From: a virus
Length of the DNA stretch: 42,252 nucleotides
Direction: 5' to 3' (one strand)
IMG/VR virus record: IMGVR_UViG_3300010970_000073
Location: 1 to 42,252 of that record
Shown: positions 9,114 to 42,252 of the stretch, piece after piece
Position numbering within the stretch: position 1 is the first letter of the stretch
Layout: every line of letters starts with the position of its first letter
The notes under the pieces: model-generated
Told to the model about the DNA's origin: nothing
Databases searched by the model: none
The model's input: only the letters and a program-made list of their open reading frames with translations
Made by a program: the position numbers and the translations under genes

Positions 9114-10726
9114 GTGATTCCTATACCCCTGTTCGCACACCTTTCACACAGATGAGCTTCACGCCAGATGTGCCGAGCAATGCTTTGTCTGCTAATGAGT
9201 ACAACTCAGGACTTAATGTTGAGTGCGATGTTAGGGGTATACGCAAGGTTGCTGGTGAACAAGAAATCCTAGGAACTATTACTGGTAACGTTATCTTTCT
9301 AGATGGCGGTTTCCGTGGCACAGAATGGACTTACATAGCAGCCACCCGCGAAGGTAAGTGGTACAAAATTACCTCTGCCGGTGTGTCTAACATCACCCCT
9401 GGTGTAGGCGCTAACCCTTCTGTTGCCCTGTCTGGCTATACAGATGACACTAATATCACCACCTCATGGGTTGGTAGTGTTTTCTTTATCAATGACAGCC
9501 TACGCCCTCCTATGTACTTCTTGGCTTCTGCCACAGAGATATACATCTATGACTCTGCTCCTGATTACTATGTCTGGAACTATGAGGCAAGCATAGGCGT
9601 AACAGCAGTAACCGCTGCTTTTGTACGCAATTACTCTTCCCCCAACGTAGGCAACATCTTGGTTGCTGGTAACCTCACTAAAACTAGTGGCGGTATTACA
9701 ACCAACTATCCAACCACAATCCGTTGGTCACAGGCTTTTGCCAATACTGGTGTTCCTGCTACTTGGTCACCTACCCTGAATAACGTAGCCAACGAGCAAG
9801 AGATTCCTGTTCGTGGTCCGATCATTGATGGCTTTTTTCTTGGTGCTAACTTCTATCTTTGTAGTTATTGGGATACGGTGGTTATGTCACCTATTGCCTA
9901 TCAAAACTCTACAGCCCCAGTCTTTGGCATACGCTTGTTTAACCAAGGTCGTGGCCTGATCCACAACAACTGTTGGTGTAATACAGACTCTGAAGTCTAT
10001 GGCGTAGATAGTAGGGACATCTGGGTATTTGATGGTTCTAACTTTGCTTCACTTGGCAACCAAAAGGTTAAGAATTACTTCTTTGCTAACCTAAACCAGA
10101 CTTATGCTGACCGCATGTTTATGGTCAACAACACACAAAAGAATCAAGTAGAACTTTACTATCCTGACCTAACCTCTACAGGCTGGTGTAACAAGATGCT
10201 GTCTTGGAGGTATGACCTCAAACTTTGGAATGCTCCAAGAGATGTGGCTAACGCTTGTATGGCAACAGAAACTCCTGTTTACAGTGGATCAGCATTTAAC
10301 TATGCTTCTCGCACTGTTGCGTATGCGCGTGGTAATGTCAGTGGCTCTAAGATCAGACAGACCAACATAACCAATGGCTTTGCTGGCTCTGCTATTCCTG
10401 CCCTGTTTGAGCGTACTAATGCCACACTACAGACCGCTGAAGGACCTGTTCCTTACTCAGCCAAGGTCTATGTCCACCGAATCCTTCCAGAGGTTGTAGG
10501 CACTGGGACTATAAACATTACTGTTGGCGGTGCTAACTCTGCTGCTCAGACTCCTCTTTATGGACAAAAGGCAACAGTCAGTATCGTTACAGACAATCCT
10601 TGGGTAACTACTCAACAAAACACTGTCAGAACTATGGCGGTCAAAGTTGAGTCTAATGATGCAACAGACACTTGGAATGTCCCAGCCCTTAACTGGCAAG
10701 CCACCATTACTGAGGATGCGTACTAA
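9110..10726 (+). CDS. Tail nozzle, beta-propeller type
   Basis: 538 residues. Features of podovirus tail nozzle or hub proteins (P22 gp10 and T7 gp12-like): repeated beta blades with 'TTIRWSQAFANTGVPATWSP', 'EQEIPVRGPIIDGFFLGANFYLCSYWDTVV', 'RGLIHNNCWCNTDSEVYGVDSRDIWVFDGSNF' and 'LGNQKVKNYFFANL'. The N-terminus (TPVRTPFTQMSFTPDVP) is the typical lead-in. Start at the ATG of an ATGA overlap with the previous gene, with GGGA upstream; an in-frame ATG lies 15 bases earlier but inside that gene. It would form the distal tube below the adaptor. Confidence 0.75.
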   Translation: MSDSYTPVRTPFTQMSFTPDVPSNALSANEYNSGLNVECDVRGIRKVAGEQEILGTITGNVIFLDGGFRGTEWTYIAATREGKWYKITSAGVSNITPGVGANPSVALSGYTDDTNITTSWVGSVFFINDSLRPPMYFLASATEIYIYDSAPDYYVWNYEASIGVTAVTAAFVRNYSSPNVGNILVAGNLTKTSGGITTNYPTTIRWSQAFANTGVPATWSPTLNNVANEQEIPVRGPIIDGFFLGANFYLCSYWDTVVMSPIAYQNSTAPVFGIRLFNQGRGLIHNNCWCNTDSEVYGVDSRDIWVFDGSNFASLGNQKVKNYFFANLNQTYADRMFMVNNTQKNQVELYYPDLTSTGWCNKMLSWRYDLKLWNAPRDVANACMATETPVYSGSAFNYASRTVAYARGNVSGSKIRQTNITNGFAGSAIPALFERTNATLQTAEGPVPYSAKVYVHRILPEVVGTGTINITVGGANSAAQTPLYGQKATVSIVTDNPWVTTQQNTVRTMAVKVESNDATDTWNVPALNWQATITEDAY

Positions 10727-24882: not shown

Positions 24883-24966
24883 GTTTTATATCAATTAAGT
24901 CTGGAGCGGGAAGGCTAGAGATTGTCTCTATCCACCCTTGGAGAAACTATGTCTAAAGGAAAAGTA

Positions 24967-25695
24967 ATGAATAAAAGAATACTTTGTTGGTTTAGTTGTG
25001 GGGCTGCATCTGCTGTAGCAACAAAATTGGCTATTGCTGAAAACGCAGGTAAGTTGCCATTAATCATTGCTTACACAGAAGTAATTGAAGAACATCCTGA
25101 TAACAAACGATTTATTAAAGATTGTGAAAAGTGGTTTGGTCAAGAGGTCGTCATTCTTGGAAATGATCGGTATGAAAGATCAATTTATAAAACATTTCAA
25201 ACTTCAGCAATGAATATTAGAGGAGCTTCTCCTTGTACGCAATTGTTAAAAAAGAAAGTTAGATTAAAGTTTGAACAACCTAACGACCTGCATGTATTTG
25301 GTTATACATCTGAAGAACAAGATAGATATGACCGTTTTTTAGATGCAAATAACATAGATGTATCAGTTCCATTAATCGATAGAGGATTGTCAAAAATAGA
25401 CTGTTTGGCAATGCTTGAAAATGCTGGAATAGAACTGCCGGCAATGTATAAGCTTGGCTACCACAATAACAATTGCATAGGATGTGTGAAAGGTGGCAAA
25501 GGATATTGGAACAAAATTAAAGTTGATTTTCCAGAACAATTTGATCGTATGGCAAAGTTGGAACGTTTTAAAAAACAGACTGTTTTAAAAGACGTTTATT
25601 TAGATGAATTGCCACCAGATGCTGGTAACTATCCTCAAGAACAAAACATTCAATGTGGAATTTTTTGTCACATGGCAGAGGAAGATTACAAATGA
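24967..25695 (+). CDS. PAPS reductase-like PP-loop protein
   Basis: 242 residues. The PP-loop variant WFSCGAASAVATKLAI (residues about 8-23) marks the adenine-nucleotide alpha-hydrolase fold; a C-terminal Cys pair in NNNCIGCVKGGKGYW and the RLKFEQPNDLHVFGYTSEEQDR region agree with phage members of the phosphoadenosine-phosphosulfate reductase family. They probably activate a substrate with ATP for sulfur or amine transfer; the real substrate in phages is unknown. ATG at 24967 has AAAGGA 6 bases upstream; ATG at 24949 with GGAG is an alternative. Confidence 0.82.
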   Translation: MNKRILCWFSCGAASAVATKLAIAENAGKLPLIIAYTEVIEEHPDNKRFIKDCEKWFGQEVVILGNDRYERSIYKTFQTSAMNIRGASPCTQLLKKKVRLKFEQPNDLHVFGYTSEEQDRYDRFLDANNIDVSVPLIDRGLSKIDCLAMLENAGIELPAMYKLGYHNNNCIGCVKGGKGYWNKIKVDFPEQFDRMAKLERFKKQTVLKDVYLDELPPDAGNYPQEQNIQCGIFCHMAEEDYK

Positions 25696-25960: not shown

Positions 25961-26848
25961 ATGAATGAGTTGGCTTTATTCGCGGGTGCTGGTGGAGGAA
26001 TACTTGCCGGACACTTGCTTGGGTGGCGAACCGTCTGTGCAGTCGAGTGGGAACCCTATCCCGCAAGCGTACTGTGCGCCCGACAAAATGACGGTTTTCT
26101 CGAAGCTTTCCCGATCTGGGATGACATTCGCACCTTTGACGGACGACCTTGGCGAGGAATTGCTCAAGTCATATCGGGAGGCTTTCCTTGTCAGGACATC
26201 AGTATCAGCGGAAAGGGAGATGGCCTCGAAGGCCAACGAAGTTCCATGTGGTACGAAATGGCGAGGGTGGTTAGCGAAGTACGACCCAAGTACGTCTTCG
26301 TGGAAAACTCCCCAGTCCTCACTATTCGGGGAGGAGTCCGAGTCATTGGAGACCTTACCGAGATGGGGTATGACTGTAAATGGACTGTTATGGGAGCAGC
26401 CGATGTTGGAGCCCCACATCAGCGCGACAGAATCTGGATTCTTGCTACCGACACCAACAGCATCCATGATGCCGTGCGAGGGGACGGTGAGGATCATGAG
26501 AAAGCATTGGGAGAGCGGAGAGTTCACACTGGAGGAGGCTTCAGCAATAGCCGGCAGGGATGTGAGGAAGTCGCAGGGCAAAGTACAGGCATGGCCTACA
26601 CCGAGCGCCAGCATGGGCAACAGGGGAACGCAAGCGGAATGGACACCAATGCGGAAATCAGGCCACACCGCGCAGTACACGTTAAACCAAGCATTACGGG
26701 ACTCCACAGGGAAAATTGGCAAACCGAACCCAAGTTGGACCGAGTGGCTAATGGGGTGGCCTATGGGATGGACAGACTTAAAGCCGTTGGCAACGGACAA
26801 GTCCCTTTGTGTGCAGCCACTGCTTGGAGAATCTTGAATGAGCATTAG
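25961..26848 (+). CDS. C5 cytosine DNA methyltransferase
   Basis: 295 residues. Motif I LALFAGAGGG (4-13), motif IV GGFPCQDIS with nucleophile Cys77, motif VI FVENSP with Glu115, motif VIII HQRDRIW (153-159) and, at the C-terminus, RLKAVGNGQVP (motifs IX-X). The recognition region (about 165-262) is low in hydrophobic residues. It would methylate cytosine in phage DNA against restriction, or mark host DNA. GGGG precedes the start. Almost the whole gene is overlapped by a second plausible gene in the +1 frame whose start is only 4 bases later. Confidence 0.92.
   Translation: MNELALFAGAGGGILAGHLLGWRTVCAVEWEPYPASVLCARQNDGFLEAFPIWDDIRTFDGRPWRGIAQVISGGFPCQDISISGKGDGLEGQRSSMWYEMARVVSEVRPKYVFVENSPVLTIRGGVRVIGDLTEMGYDCKWTVMGAADVGAPHQRDRIWILATDTNSIHDAVRGDGEDHEKALGERRVHTGGGFSNSRQGCEEVAGQSTGMAYTERQHGQQGNASGMDTNAEIRPHRAVHVKPSITGLHRENWQTEPKLDRVANGVAYGMDRLKAVGNGQVPLCAATAWRILNEH
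25965..26837 (+). CDS. Methyltransferase-overlapping protein, +1 frame (290 aa)
   Basis: Reads the same DNA as the methyltransferase one frame over, without a stop for 290 codons. It has its own family-like pattern: EELLKSYREAFLVRTSV, then WLAKYDPSTSSWKTPQSSLF, LETLPRWGMTVNGLLWEQP, ESGFLLPTPTASM, AWPTPSASM and NPSWTEWLMGWPMGWTDLKPL, which I recognise from phage and prophage proteins annotated as hypothetical or methyltransferase-associated. Its start shares the SD with the methyltransferase (ATGAATGA), and its TGA is directly followed by the ATG of rusA. Function unknown. Confidence 0.7.
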   Translation: MSWLYSRVLVEEYLPDTCLGGEPSVQSSGNPIPQAYCAPDKMTVFSKLSRSGMTFAPLTDDLGEELLKSYREAFLVRTSVSAEREMASKANEVPCGTKWRGWLAKYDPSTSSWKTPQSSLFGEESESLETLPRWGMTVNGLLWEQPMLEPHISATESGFLLPTPTASMMPCEGTVRIMRKHWESGEFTLEEASAIAGRDVRKSQGKVQAWPTPSASMGNRGTQAEWTPMRKSGHTAQYTLNQALRDSTGKIGKPNPSWTEWLMGWPMGWTDLKPLATDKSLCVQPLLGES

Positions 26849-27260
26849 CATTTGTTTTTATGTAGACACTACGCCTATCCCAAAAGGCCGGCCTAGGTTT
26901 CGTAGCATGGGTAAGTTTGTACAAACGTATACCGACAGCAAGACTAGGAGTTTTGAGGAACTTATTGCTGAACAGGCTAAAGAAGCAATGGGCGACATGG
27001 AGCCACTAGAAACGCCTTTAACAGTGTTTTTGCACTTCACGCTACCTATACCTGTCTCAGCCACAAAAAAGGTCAAGGAAGCCCTTTTAAACGCTCCACA
27101 CACCAAAAAACCCGACATAGATAACCTTTGTAAGTCGGTGCTAGACGGAATGGCAAATATTGTCTTTAAAAACGATGGACAGATTTCATCGTTACATGCA
27201 ACAAAAAAGTATGGCAATACTGGGTTTATCAATGTGCTGATCCGAGAAGAGAATGAATGA
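26838..27260 (+). CDS. rusA: Holliday junction resolvase, RusA family
   Basis: 140 residues. RusA signatures: PIPKGRPRF near the N-terminus, KPDIDNLCKSVLDGM at 91-105 with metal-binding Asp93, Asp95 and Asp103, and NDGQI at 112-116. RusA dimers cut four-way junctions made by recombination or replication, before packaging. ATG follows the TGA of the overlapping 290-residue frame and overlaps the methyltransferase by 11 bases. Confidence 0.93.
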   Translation: MSISICFYVDTTPIPKGRPRFRSMGKFVQTYTDSKTRSFEELIAEQAKEAMGDMEPLETPLTVFLHFTLPIPVSATKKVKEALLNAPHTKKPDIDNLCKSVLDGMANIVFKNDGQISSLHATKKYGNTGFINVLIREENE

Positions 27261-31918: not shown

Positions 31919-32224
31919 TTAAACCTTTGCAAAACGAATTGACGTAACCACACTATGCGAAGTGTGGGCCGTGATCAATTGGCGACTAGGCTGCAGCTTT
32001 TCGCATATGGTTTTATAGTCGATCGTTTCGCGCTCTGATTCGATAACCTTCGCGGTAAACACAAAACCCGCATGGTCGCCCGCGCCTTGGGCCTTAATCG
32101 TGGCTTTAATGGTTTCCAATTGTTTTGTAAGAGCTTTAATTTCACTATCTAACGCGCCCGCGTGGTCGATTAGTGCGAAAAGGTCAGGAGTTAAAACAAT
32201 GGCTTGGTTTGTTGTCGTTTGCAT
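31919..32224 (-). CDS. Coiled-coil protein, first gene of island operon (101 aa)
   Basis: MQTTTNQAIVLTPDLFALIDHAGALDSEIKALTKQLETIKATIKAQGAG forms a helical coil, and then a beta-rich segment (GFVFTAKVIESERETIDYKTICEKL) follows. Similar proteins are seen in phages, often near nuclease-inhibitor genes; function unknown. ATG at 32224 has AAAGGA upstream. Confidence 0.65.
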   Translation of the reverse strand: MQTTTNQAIVLTPDLFALIDHAGALDSEIKALTKQLETIKATIKAQGAGDHAGFVFTAKVIESERETIDYKTICEKLQPSRQLITAHTSHSVVTSIRFAKV

Positions 32225-32260
32225 AGTTTGGTTTCCTTTGTGCATAACTAGGTTTTTACG

Positions 32261-32289
32261 TAACCGCCACAATTAGCGGTTAATTTATA
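32261..32289 (-). promoter_or_regulatory. Promoter and operator candidate of the island operon
   Basis: Read leftward, TATAAA (complement of 32284-32289) could be a -10 box. Immediately downstream is the perfect inverted repeat TAACCGC-8 bases-GCGGTTA (32261-32267, 32276-32282), a position suited to repression. A matching -35 was not identified with confidence. Confidence 0.45.
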
Positions 32290-32354
32290 CGTGCAAACAA
32301 CGTGCCACTATATAACCACGCGACTATGCAAACAAAGGACTACATTATTAAATG

Positions 32355-32366
32355 ATGCATGCATGG
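32355..32366. repeat. ATGCATGCATGG, second copy
   Basis: Identical to 30160-30171 on the other side of the island operon. Twelve bases flanking the operon in direct orientation; perhaps a trace of insertion, perhaps chance in a repeat-rich region. Confidence 0.35.
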
Positions 32367-32578
32367 TATTGGTGCGAAGTAATATAGTAGTGCGTTAATA
32401 CAGTGCGTAAAGTTACAGTATTGGTGCATGGTGTGGATAGTGTGGATAACTATGGGCTTTGTGTATAACTTGAAATTACCCTTATTCAAGATTATAAAAC
32501 GGGCCGCGCAAATAAGAGAAAAACCCTAGGCCTTAATTGGCAGCATGTAACGGGCAGCTAATGGGGGCAAACACAAAG

Positions 32579-32627
32579 CAAAGGGAAACCGTTAAACCCT
32601 TGGAACCCGCGCAAACAAAGGGAAACC
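32579..32627 (+). repeat. Direct repeat CAAAGGGAAACC
   Basis: Copies at 32579-32590 and 32616-32627, start to start 37 bases. A related ACAAAGGGATAAG is near 32660. Iteron-like, inside the putative origin region. Confidence 0.5.
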
Positions 32628-32744
32628 CTGAATTTGTGTCTCAATTGCACGTATAGGTAAACACAAAGGGATAAGTAAACCCAAACATTCTAAAAACCCC
32701 AAAATGATAGGGCGCTCCCTGAGACAAATCACGACCCCTTAGAT

Positions 32745-32824
32745 GCAAACGAGAATCATTCGCATTACCAAACACAAATGAGAATCATTCGCATCTACTA
32801 AATGCTAATAGGAATCATTCGCAA
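32745..32824. promoter_or_regulatory. Three tandem Fur-box-like repeats
   Basis: Copies at 32745-32765, 32774-32794 and 32804-32824 share GAATCATTCGCA, with start-to-start distances of 29 and 30 bases. Copy 2 (AATGAGAATCATTCGCAT) agrees with the E. coli Fur consensus in 13 of 19 positions by my alignment and looks still closer to Fur boxes of beta-proteobacteria. Nearest genes run away on the left (operon start at 32224) and end on the right (HNH, ending at 32944). So they could act as iron-dependent operator or as iterons. Confidence 0.55.
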
Positions 32825-32943
32825 CAACTGCCCCATCAGGTCAGCAGAACGGCTGAGGGGGGTAGCACTGGAACTGGGGGCGGAGAGGGGGGCCCACTCA
32901 CCCACAGGCGAAATTTCTTTAAAAACTTCCTTAAACCTAACGA

Positions 32944-33429
32944 CTATAGTGTGTTAAATGGATGTAAACGTCTTTTAGCATCTAGGTAGGCTTGTGCGGC
33001 ATCTTCTTGCGATTTGTAAGAACCTATGTATATACGTTTGCCATTAACGCTTATACGTGCCCTCCATAGCTTTTTCTTGGACATATACGAGATGCCTAGG
33101 TTTCCATGTGAGTTGTTCTTTTGGGGTTTAAATATGTTTTGCGCGTTTTCATAAGAAGTTGCCTCCCGCAGGTTTGCAATGCTGTTGTCCAATCCGTTGC
33201 CATTAATGTGGTCAATTAAATGTTTGGGATGTTCTCCCGTCATGTACAACCATGCCAGCCTATGCGCTCCATATAAACGGTCTTTATACTTAATTCTTAT
33301 ATATCCATGCACATTTGCACCAGCTTTCATTCCTGCTGGAAATCTTGGGGACGGCTTAATGCGCCAATGAAAATCGCCAGTTTCTGGGTTATATATAAAA
33401 ACCGTTTTAACTTCGTCTTGCGTAATCAT
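32944..33429 (-). CDS. HNH homing endonuclease with AP2 DNA-binding domain
   Basis: 161 residues. HNH part: GAHRLAWLYMTGEHPKHLIDHINGNGLDNSIANLREAT, with His56 and DHINGNGLDN at 73-82. The AP2/ERF-like domain at about 110-155 (GNLGISYMSKKKLWRARISVNGKRIYIGSY) binds DNA. Such free-standing enzymes copy themselves by cutting intron- or gene-less alleles. AGGAG precedes ATG. It stands alone, leftward, between the origin-like region and the late genes. Confidence 0.92.
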   Translation of the reverse strand: MITQDEVKTVFIYNPETGDFHWRIKPSPRFPAGMKAGANVHGYIRIKYKDRLYGAHRLAWLYMTGEHPKHLIDHINGNGLDNSIANLREATSYENAQNIFKPQKNNSHGNLGISYMSKKKLWRARISVNGKRIYIGSYKSQEDAAQAYLDAKRRLHPFNTL

Positions 33430-33730
33430 TGACTACTCCTATAAAAATTTCTTTCCTATAGTTATTGGAACACAAGTGGGCTTCCTAGTCAAGCGACCAT
33501 ATAGCCATTGCCATATAAAATTTTTTGCTATAAACTTCTTATGCCAAGACGCATGGAGATTGAATCGCCTTACCCTGTACCAAGGTGTGCCGTTCAAAGC
33601 AGGGGCAGTCTCCAGCCGTGTTGGTAACCGAATAAGGGTTAGCGCCTTTTGTACTTAAACTAAACGTGTTGTGCGGGTACAGAACACTGCTTTATGTGAG
33701 CGTGTTACCAACGTCTATATAGGAAATAGT
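33430..33730. other. Intergenic region upstream of the late genes
   Basis: About 300 bases. It holds a candidate promoter, a 28-codon open frame with no proven meaning (33541-33627), a TGGAGAT/GTCTCCA stem (33552-33558 with 33608-33614), the perfect inverted repeat GTTGGTAAC/GTTACCAAC (33620-33628, 33704-33712) and three CGTGTT copies. Perhaps a structured leader of the late transcript. Confidence 0.55.
33508..33534 (+). promoter_or_regulatory. Candidate late promoter
   Basis: TTGCCA (33508-33513), 15 bases, TATAAA (33529-33534). The spacing is short for sigma-70. It is the only good match upstream of the long late operon that I found. Confidence 0.4.
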
Positions 33731-35959: not shown

Positions 35960-36148
35960 ATGGAAGACCTCTCTGCAAAGTTTCAGCAGAGATTGTCTGG
36001 ACAGGCTGAAGCGTGTGCCCGTAAAGCTTTGGAATGGTTACAAAAAGACCTCCAAAGTGGGCATATGCTAAACCCCCAAGAAGTCTACTATCTGGCACAA
36101 GCCGCCCAAATCTTGTTAGACATACGAGATATCTATGGCGAAAAGTGA
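35960..36148 (+). CDS. Small helical protein upstream of TerL (62 aa)
   Basis: MEDLSAKFQQRLSGQAEACARKALEWLQKDLQSG, then LNPQEVYYLAQAAQILLDIRDIYG: two or three helices. It starts directly after the preceding stop and overlaps terL by 14 bases. Could be the small terminase instead of the gene at 34222; evidence for either is weak. Confidence 0.6.
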   Translation: MEDLSAKFQQRLSGQAEACARKALEWLQKDLQSGHMLNPQEVYYLAQAAQILLDIRDIYGEK

Positions 36149-37727
36149 AGCAAGTGACTACATCCAGCCGATCTACAAAGACCGCGCCTTAAAACATCTA
36201 GTCAAACTGGCTGGTGGTAAAAGAGCCGCCAACTCACTAAATCCTGAACAAAAAAAGAAGATGATGCTGGCACGGGCAAAGATAGCCCATGACATGCAAT
36301 TCAACCAACTTAAATGGTTTAGACCGTTTAAGTACCAAGAAGAATTCTTTAAGACTGGCCTGACCAGCACCCGTAGAGGAATGATTGCTGCCAACCGTGC
36401 CGGCAAGACCATTGCATCTACCTATGAGACTGCCTACCACCTAACTGGACGCTATCCTGAGAGTTGGAAGGGTAAGCGCTGGGACAAGCCTGTGATTGCT
36501 ATGGCTGCTGGTGAATCTTGGGAACAGGTCGCTAAGACATTGCAGTCTAAGTTGCTAGGGTGCGATGACATCAAACAAAACTATAAACTCGGTACAGGTT
36601 CAATCCCCAAGGAATGTATTGATGACAAATCCTACCGATCAGACGGAGCAAACGTCCTATCCATTGAAGTTTGGCATGTCTCTGGTGGAAAGTCCAAGCT
36701 TTATTTCTCTAACTACACTCAGCAGGTTCGCCACTTGCAAGGATTCGAGCTTGACTTGGTTGTCCTTGATGAGCAACCACCAGACGAGACTTTTTCAGAA
36801 CTTGTTGTGCGTACAGCGGCTAGAAATGGACAGGTTATCTGCTCATTTACCCCACTCAAAGGATTGTCAGGACTTGTAAGAAAGTTCTGGGATCAGATTG
36901 AAGGCTACTCGCATGTGCGGGTAACTTGGGATGATGTTCCCTATGAAAATGAATGGGGTGAGCCGTTCTTTAGCCAGTCTGAGCGAGAGCAATTAGCCAG
37001 AGACTTTATGCCTTGGGAACGAGAGTGCCGAATGAACGGTATTCCGCTGGTTGGCAAAGGCGTTGTGTTTCCGCTACTCAATTGGCCTACATACAAGGCT
37101 ACAGATGTGGACCTGATGACAAACGACAAGTTGGAGCGTTTGATCAGTTTTGACTTAGGAATTAAAAATGACCCGACTGTTATCTCGTTCTTTTTTAGAG
37201 ACCCAGCACAAGAAATCATCTACCTTCATCGGCAAATCACTATCCCATCAGGGGAAACGCCAGACGAATATGTTCATTACCTATTGGATCGAGAGTCTAA
37301 AGGTGTCCCGATTGCGCTCCCACATGATGCGGCTACGGCAGGGCGGTATACGCTCACTGAACAATCGGTCAGGGAAGTGTTTGAAGACACCTATGGTCTT
37401 AACACCATTGCGGGTGCAATCCTCAATCCAGCGAATGATCAGGGAAAGGTCACAAACCATAAAGCGTATGGAATCAATATAATGCGCCTAGGAATGGAAC
37501 GTGGAACGTTTTTGATTAACGAATCCTGTAAAGCGTTCCTTGATGAGGCTAGAAACTATGCTATTGACGAACATGGCAGGTTCTCAGACCCTGACGACCA
37601 TATCGATTCTGCAAGAATTGGTATATTAGCGTTAATTCAAGGGCATGGAGAGTCAGTCGTAAGTCGCGCCAATACATTTGCTTTTAGACGACCAGCCCCG
37701 ATTGAAGGCAAGGTACAAAGGATATGA
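36135..37727 (+). CDS. terL: Terminase large subunit
   Basis: 530 residues. ATPase: Walker A AANRAGKT at 85-92 (Lys91), Walker B LDLVVLDE at 206-213 (Asp212, Glu213), coupling motif CSFTPLKG at 236-243. Nuclease: first metal Asp340 in ISFDLGIKNDPT, PHDAA at 396-400, and DPDDHIDSARIG at 485-496 with Asp491. It translocates DNA into the prohead and cuts concatemers. Motif order is complete, so it should be active. Confidence 0.95.
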   Translation: MAKSEASDYIQPIYKDRALKHLVKLAGGKRAANSLNPEQKKKMMLARAKIAHDMQFNQLKWFRPFKYQEEFFKTGLTSTRRGMIAANRAGKTIASTYETAYHLTGRYPESWKGKRWDKPVIAMAAGESWEQVAKTLQSKLLGCDDIKQNYKLGTGSIPKECIDDKSYRSDGANVLSIEVWHVSGGKSKLYFSNYTQQVRHLQGFELDLVVLDEQPPDETFSELVVRTAARNGQVICSFTPLKGLSGLVRKFWDQIEGYSHVRVTWDDVPYENEWGEPFFSQSEREQLARDFMPWERECRMNGIPLVGKGVVFPLLNWPTYKATDVDLMTNDKLERLISFDLGIKNDPTVISFFFRDPAQEIIYLHRQITIPSGETPDEYVHYLLDRESKGVPIALPHDAATAGRYTLTEQSVREVFEDTYGLNTIAGAILNPANDQGKVTNHKAYGINIMRLGMERGTFLINESCKAFLDEARNYAIDEHGRFSDPDDHIDSARIGILALIQGHGESVVSRANTFAFRRPAPIEGKVQRI

Positions 37728-41377: not shown

Positions 41378-42252
41378 ATGGCAACCATCACCTCAACAGC
41401 TTTAGGAAACGGTAACGGTTCCTACACCACAGACATTGTCGTAAAAGACCTCGACATGACTGTTTCTAACTATGTTAAAGACCGCACTCCGGTTACCAAC
41501 ATGGCTATGTCCAAAAAGCGTAAAGTTAATTCAACTTTGCACATTTGGCCTAATGACTACTTCCGTGTCCCAGCACTGAACGCTAAATTGGAAGGCGCAG
41601 CAGTTGATGCAACCGCAGCCGCTTCTAACACCCGTTCTAACTTGGGCAACTACACCCAGATTTTCACTACTGTGATCGGTGCTACTGGCACTGCTCGCGC
41701 TGTGGAACAGGCTGGTGGCGATCCTCAAGCATATCAAGAAGTCAAGCAATTGACTGAGATCATGTTTGACGTTGAACTGCAAATGGTTCGTGCTGATGCT
41801 GCTTCTATCAAGTACAGCGGTCAAGCATCTACTACTCAGTCTTCGCCTAACAACGGTCGTAGATTTGGTTCATTGTTCTCTTTTGCTGGCACTCGTTCTG
41901 GTAACCCTACCAGCGGTACAGCAGTTTTGAACATTGCTACCTCTGACAGCAACGATACAACTTCTGCCACTTCTACCAATACACCTTTCAACGGTTCATT
42001 GGCTAACGCTGGTTTAGGTTACTTTTCGTTTGCTACTGGTCAAACCTTGCAAGCTTTCAGCCCTGTGCTGTACAAGCAATTGGTGACTGTCGCTGAACAA
42101 CGTTTCAACGCCAAGATCACTAACATGGTTGTGCCTACATCGTTGCGTACCACCATCTCTGACAACATTCCTCAGAGTCGTTCTATCAACCGTTTTAACC
42201 CTGCTGACAAGGGCGACACGATTGGTACATACGAAGGTGACTTCAACTACAC
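41378..42252 (+). CDS. Major capsid protein, N-terminal part (SU10-like, DUF5309)
   Basis: The gene continues at base 1 and gives 384 residues. Features of the SU10-type major head protein: DLDMTVSNYVKDRTPVTNMAM at the N-terminal arm, then STLHIWPNDYFRVP ... LGNYTQIFTTVIGATGTARAVEQAGG with the following long (spine) helix AYQEVKQLTEIMFDVELQMV, and FSPVLYKQLVTVAEQRF. GGAG at 41367-41370 stands 7 bases before ATG. No cleavable scaffold domain is present, in line with the separate scaffold gene. Confidence 0.92.
   Translation, partial: MATITSTALGNGNGSYTTDIVVKDLDMTVSNYVKDRTPVTNMAMSKKRKVNSTLHIWPNDYFRVPALNAKLEGAAVDATAAASNTRSNLGNYTQIFTTVIGATGTARAVEQAGGDPQAYQEVKQLTEIMFDVELQMVRADAASIKYSGQASTTQSSPNNGRRFGSLFSFAGTRSGNPTSGTAVLNIATSDSNDTTSATSTNTPFNGSLANAGLGYFSFATGQTLQAFSPVLYKQLVTVAEQRFNAKITNMVVPTSLRTTISDNIPQSRSINRFNPADKGDTIGTYEGDFNY
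42198..42252. repeat. Terminal direct repeat, right copy (circular overlap)
   Basis: Identical to bases 1-55. Removing one copy leaves a circular map of 42,197 bp with an unbroken capsid gene. Confidence 0.95.

Follow-up and report, generated by a model that had tools for sequence, protein, structure and literature searches.

The locus examined here raises the question of why a virus of bacteria should carry, in a stretch devoid of genes, three closely spaced repeats that resemble operators of the host iron-uptake regulator Fur. The DNA under study, hereafter the window, is an IMG/VR record of 42,252 bases from a freshwater virus of bacteria. The sequence GAATCATTCGCA is found exactly at positions 32753, 32782 and 32812 (intervals of 29 and 30 nt), where it forms the core of 30-nt repeats, and no fourth exact copy exists elsewhere in the 42 kb window. 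An earlier note on this DNA had described three tandem copies spaced by 29–30 bases, and three repeats spanning 32747–32826 were confirmed. The gene-free location that it reported was also recovered (no ORF of at least 60 aa between 32273 and 32943), as were the neighbouring DnaA boxes. The perfect DnaA box TTATCCACA occurs once in the window, at 32441, and boxes with one mismatch are located at 32239, 32432 and 32460. The features of the region are the following:

31919–32272, minus strand: 117 aa gene that opens the leftward gene group, weak RecE-like match
32239–32468, minus strand: cluster of DnaA boxes, one perfect and three with one mismatch
32504–32677, plus strand: A-rich CAAAGGGAAACC / GGTAAACACAAA repeats that separate the DnaA boxes from the slot
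32728–32852, unstranded: exchangeable operator slot (alignment with relatives)
32747–32767, unstranded: predicted Fur box 1 (AAACGAGAATCATTCGCATTA), 26.9 bits
32776–32796, unstranded: predicted Fur box 2 (AAATGAGAATCATTCGCATCT), 31.0 bits
32806–32826, unstranded: predicted Fur box 3 (TAATAGGAATCATTCGCAACA), the weakest, 18.5 bits
32853–32928, unstranded: conserved non-coding block GGGGGTAGgaCTGgaa..GGggGGCCCACTC.CCCATTCCCAAA, putative packaging site/genome end (terminase relatives)
32944–33429, minus strand: HNH endonuclease carrying an AP2 domain; the block and the terminase region flank it
36135–37727, plus strand: terminase large subunit (TerL)

Two other segments of the window deserve mention. 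A phosphoadenosine phosphosulfate reductase gene (sulfur metabolism) lies at 24922–25695 in the replication gene group, and both strands hold long open frames at 25961–26851, the plus strand coding a 295 aa methyltransferase and the minus strand a frame of 291 aa.

Counting matches to the E. coli 19-mer consensus was discarded as a test of Fur identity: it does not discriminate, as chance alone gives about 7.7 matches of score 13 per 42 kb. The 13/19 match given earlier for copy 2 was a correct count but is at background level, and the Fur reading uses a matrix instead. A two-box pattern with an only partly fixed motif was scanned over IMG/VR and yielded at least 119 loci, against 11 for its complement used as control in the entire collection. 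Among the matches listed, two boxes were recognized by the matrix in 106 of 121 Fur-pattern loci and in none of the control loci. The unfixed flanks were also conserved in the Fur-pattern loci, giving AAATG[AC]GAAT[CG]ATTC[TG]CATTT. The matrix was built from loci of other phages, the window being excluded from training. The training loci were picked by their core motif and, therefore, only flank conservation, recovery of E. coli sites and the window scores are independent evidence; the loci found in the collection scans are related to each other, and their ORFs were called mechanically. The scan with a Fur matrix proposed in the earlier note placed the three window boxes (26.9, 31.0 and 18.5 bits) far above the next-best site of the window (7.9 bits) and above the best score in 60 Markov sequences of matching length (14.2 bits). 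The repeats fit the Fur operator palindrome AATGNGAATNATTCNCATT of 19–21 nt with its 7-1-7 core.

The same matrix recovers known Fur sites, the palindrome being identical to the E. coli/proteobacterial Fur box. In a 19 kb stretch of E. coli K-12 all six matches are found within the fepA-fes, fepD-entS and fepB-entC gaps, and the matches in two more 45 kb stretches include the regions upstream of cirA and fhuE; the top-scoring site of the cirA stretch sits in the yeiS-preT gap. In 250 Burkholderiales genomes, 12 occurrences of the exact box were counted (reversed-pattern control, 0); adjoining genes include those for three iron-type ABC transporters with solute-binding proteins, FeoA, ExbB and ferritin. 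Bacterial tandem arrays adjoin genes of metal-binding ABC systems (ZnuA/SitA-type) and TonB receptors, and some of them may be sites of Mur or of another Fur relative. The scores in the window, the recovery of E. coli operators and the iron-type neighbours in Burkholderiales support the Fur-operator identity claimed before. Judged by sequence, the window repeats thus appear to be genuine Fur-type boxes, and the observation is larger than first noted. A mere chance resemblance, as the 13/19 match by itself would have allowed, is refuted at the sequence level by the matrix scores, the control scan and the recurrence over lineages described below, and is given practically no weight.

The motif pair matches hundreds of isolate records, mostly of T5-like phages, a rough count obtained with a permissive E-value. 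Inspection by matrix or consensus revealed Fur arrays in T5, Yersinia phiR2-01, Cronobacter CR3, Escherichia tuntematon and Schickermooser, Aeromonas AhSzq-1, Vibrio SJ1, Pseudomonas phiPsa267 and Roseobacter CRP-143, and a single strong box each in podophage Lau218 and MW202796. Predicted Fur arrays are thus recurrent across many virulent phages; no description of them was found in the openly licensed literature. The arrays have 2–8 strong boxes at a spacing that ranges from 16 to 76 nt, and the Fur bases are retained across phages, which answers the conservation check suggested earlier. None of 25 array phages, the window among them, encodes a Fur protein in a search whose controls worked.

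Placement of the phage arrays is unlike that of operators. Their median distance to the next gene start is 272 nt, compared to 14 nt for bacterial arrays (p = 8e-9), and they occupy large gene-free gaps of about 750 nt. In the window, the nearest leftward gene start is 470 nt from the array, no sigma-70-like promoter or terminator was seen at the array, and no Rfam family was found in the whole window. TerL was detected in 28 of 48 array contigs, with the array 5′ of its gene in 23 of the 28; the array-TerL distance is below random (p = 3e-8), some of these contigs being related. In T7-like phages the array is found past the terminase gene, on the side of the record end or of the early genes. 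A general enrichment of DnaA boxes around arrays was considered and rejected: the 4.5-fold value obtained is exceeded by that of a control motif of the same composition (7.6-fold, small counts), and the association is claimed for the window and T5 only. As a separate observation, in two IMG/VR contigs (L025 and L029; G009:C1:3757-5220 and G011:C1:43774-45237) the frame around the TerL match begins 84–85 nt from the Fur array and, when read through, crosses 10 TGA, 5 TAG and 1 TAA, possibly through recoding, an intron or a frame artefact.

Comparison of 80 collected IMG/VR relatives of the window TerL (at least 82% identity) showed that the array lies in an exchangeable segment. The block at 32853–32928 is common to 37 distinct loci of the family, and what separates it from the left flank differs phage by phage. 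Fur boxes are present at the homologous place in 4 of the 43 relatives with enough upstream sequence; boxes were seen in the slots of L271, L304, L306, L313 and L009. L349, the closest relative, matches the window at 83% identity up to 32728 and then carries two copies of AAAAAAGCACGACCGTGCTATT, a different tandem palindrome that was found, among further viral contigs searched, in its own contig alone. The slots of several other relatives hold ACTGACCGGTCAGTCAGT, ACCGACCGGTCGGTCGG or GTGACTGCTCAGTCAC, that of L284 ATCAGTACACTGAT and that of L280 tandem CCTGTCCCCAATTA. The slot is enriched in palindromes (p about 6e-8) and tandem repeats (p about 1e-7), values calculated over non-independent relatives, and in about one third of the aligned slots an operator is not evident. 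The slot motif ACTGACCRGTCAGTNAGT is of TetR type: three of its four sites in 250 Burkholderiales genomes are located 7–61 nt upstream of a gene with a TetR_N domain (TetR family). None of 16 slot relatives encodes a TetR protein, the search controls having worked. This motif shows no enrichment around Fur arrays generally, and its relation to them is therefore one of exchange rather than co-occurrence.

Six of 47 contigs start inside the conserved block (p = 2e-6). This is suggestive of a packaging site or genome end (cos/pac), and not more than suggestive because a hypervariable stretch can also break assemblies. Some further features were observed around the block. Direct repeats TTGGGGACAGA / CCTGTCCCCAATTA, spaced by 18–30 nt, are present upstream of it in L272 and L280, and also occur in L285 and L286. 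The window relative MW202484 (L403) has, by eye, a tRNA-Asn-like sequence after the block, near 41500. In L349 about 200 nt replace window positions 32728–33494 so that the HNH/AP2 gene looks inserted; this gene was the sole match when the gene-free region was searched against isolate-phage nucleotide sequences.

A comparable organization was found in a second lineage, formed by very abundant freshwater phages (80 loci, TerL at least 97% identical), whose sites precede the small terminase gene by 250–310 nt. Fur boxes are present in 33 of 42 distinct slots, 11 of them together with the palindrome ACTATGCAAAAAACGCATAACCT, which occurs alone in 8 others. Contig starts cluster beside this slot too. 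LexA-like CTGT-N8-ACAG sequences are found within 300 nt of 25 of the 42 distinct slots. Near arrays overall this motif has 36 matches (46-fold enrichment), none being found with a gap of 7 or 9, and it is still 8-fold enriched outside the second lineage (9 versus 6 matches). At the sequence level, the strict gap of 8 is that of a LexA operator. In L404–L482, about 560–760 nt 5′ of TerL, cassettes (Fur box, ACTATGCAAAAAACGCATAACCT, CTGT-N8-ACAG and AGGGTTTACCCT repeats) are shuffled beside near-identical terminases.

The coliphage T5 (AY543070, L129) offers a close comparison. Its predicted Fur boxes (9552–9710) are inside the annotated injection stop signal (9140–10149), in a gene-free stretch close to the end of the terminal repeat. 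Four DnaA-like boxes at 9437–9518 are followed by the Fur boxes about 35 nt further, and the window is arranged likewise. The AY543070 annotation covers the DnaA-like and Fur boxes only as stop-signal sequence; in an older T5 record the labels "direct repeat C" and "palindromes E-J" are all that the Fur-box stretch bears. Fur also regulates FhuA, the receptor used by T5. The window shares the gene-free repeats, the DnaA boxes and the host-type operator sites of the stop signal, although T5 is an unrelated phage of 122 kb with a 10 kb terminal repeat, and two-step entry, well studied in T5, would be a conjecture for the window phage. By analogy, the stop signal provides a functional precedent for a pause of DNA entry at such a place. 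A recent description of it lists repeats, palindromes and DnaA boxes, for which an interaction with host components is suspected, and leaves Fur unmentioned (2026, PMC13250531). Another strong Fur-like site of 16.6 bits was noticed at 230–250 of AY543070, within the dmp gene near the left genome end.

What these arrays do can be read in several ways. The earlier note had proposed iron sensing, titration of Fur or use of the repeats as iterons. Binding of a phage replication initiator to iterons would agree with the close-by DnaA boxes. The repeats are substituted in sister phages, their spacing is variable in relatives while the Fur bases are kept, and the replication-initiator-like gene is 8 kb away, making this proposal very improbable. 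A sensor of the host state, acting through an unannotated promoter or small RNA of the gap and making early or packaging transcription follow iron, DNA damage or drugs, has more in its favour: every operator type concerned (Fur, TetR-type, LexA-like) belongs to a repressor, colicin genes are a known case of regulation by LexA and Fur together, and the second-lineage sites precede the small terminase gene. Such a role is conceivable but rather unlikely for arrays that are distant from gene starts, that are flanked by convergent genes in T5 and Phapecoctavirus tuntematon, and that, in the window, show no sigma-70-like promoter, terminator or known RNA family. Operation as a decoy, in which Fur (or TetR/LexA) would be drawn off by the replicating phage DNA and host iron uptake or other regulons thereby derepressed, would fit the 2–8 strong boxes per array at many loci and the absence of the cognate regulators from the phage genomes searched. 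We consider it doubtful: Fur is present in thousands of molecules per cell, too many for the second lineage, in which 27 of 46 slots have a Fur box and only 3 have two or more, and titration does not need a fixed position by the terminase. Iron sensing and Fur titration are thus possible but not favoured, given arrays off gene starts, mostly single boxes in the second lineage and interchange with TetR- and LexA-type operators.

A further proposal is that the host repressor shapes the DNA at the terminase cut site. In phage lambda, a site for host IHF at cosB lies beside the terminase region, and the window resembles this arrangement in having a site for a host DNA-binding protein there. A packaging cofactor would suit the location of the array, which lies 5′ of the terminase and is separated from the conserved block by 30 nt. 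We regard this as improbable because Fur and TetR-family proteins are not known to share a DNA-bending role; the lambda case also differs in the proteins involved and in that the site of the window family is exchanged among regulator families. A host Fur box is likewise carried by lambda-like coliphages with sitABCD cargo (PMC6969025), but these are temperate phages in which the box is the operator of the cargo-gene promoter, while a gene regulated by the window array is not evident.

The reading that we favour, tentatively and at somewhat less than even chance, is that the array is a tandem operator for host Fur placed in a dedicated exchangeable slot beside the conserved block, which lies at the early/late boundary with the packaging site or genome end close by, and would act there as a block or landmark. 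It is preferred because unrelated repressor families interchange in the slot, which renders a regulon-specific role less likely, and because single sites are too few for Fur titration and the arrays lie away from promoters. We infer from the sequence comparisons that the host's Fur-Fe2+ would bind once the DNA is inside the cell, its place being taken in the sister phages by some other resident repressor. The bound repressor could then form a nucleoprotein block or landmark beside the genome end. Its effect would be either to halt the entering DNA for a time or to keep early transcription separate from late transcription and packaging. A host repressor that binds tightly and is always present would suffice, whatever its family, so that Fur, TetR-family and LexA-type operators would be interchangeable, and the most familiar example would be the T5 injection stop signal. 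A broader proposal, put forward with more reserve, is that operator cassettes for host repressors by the genome end are an unrecognised module of virulent proteobacterial phages that acts as a gate or landmark, Fur being the host component in T5.

The two-step DNA entry of T5 is a decades-old subject of study, and the predicted Fur boxes make the identity of the host component at its stop signal testable. That sister phages exchange operators at a single site suggests a basic step of infection tied to whichever repressor the host keeps on DNA. Such coupling would connect the iron, drug and DNA-damage state of the host with infection.
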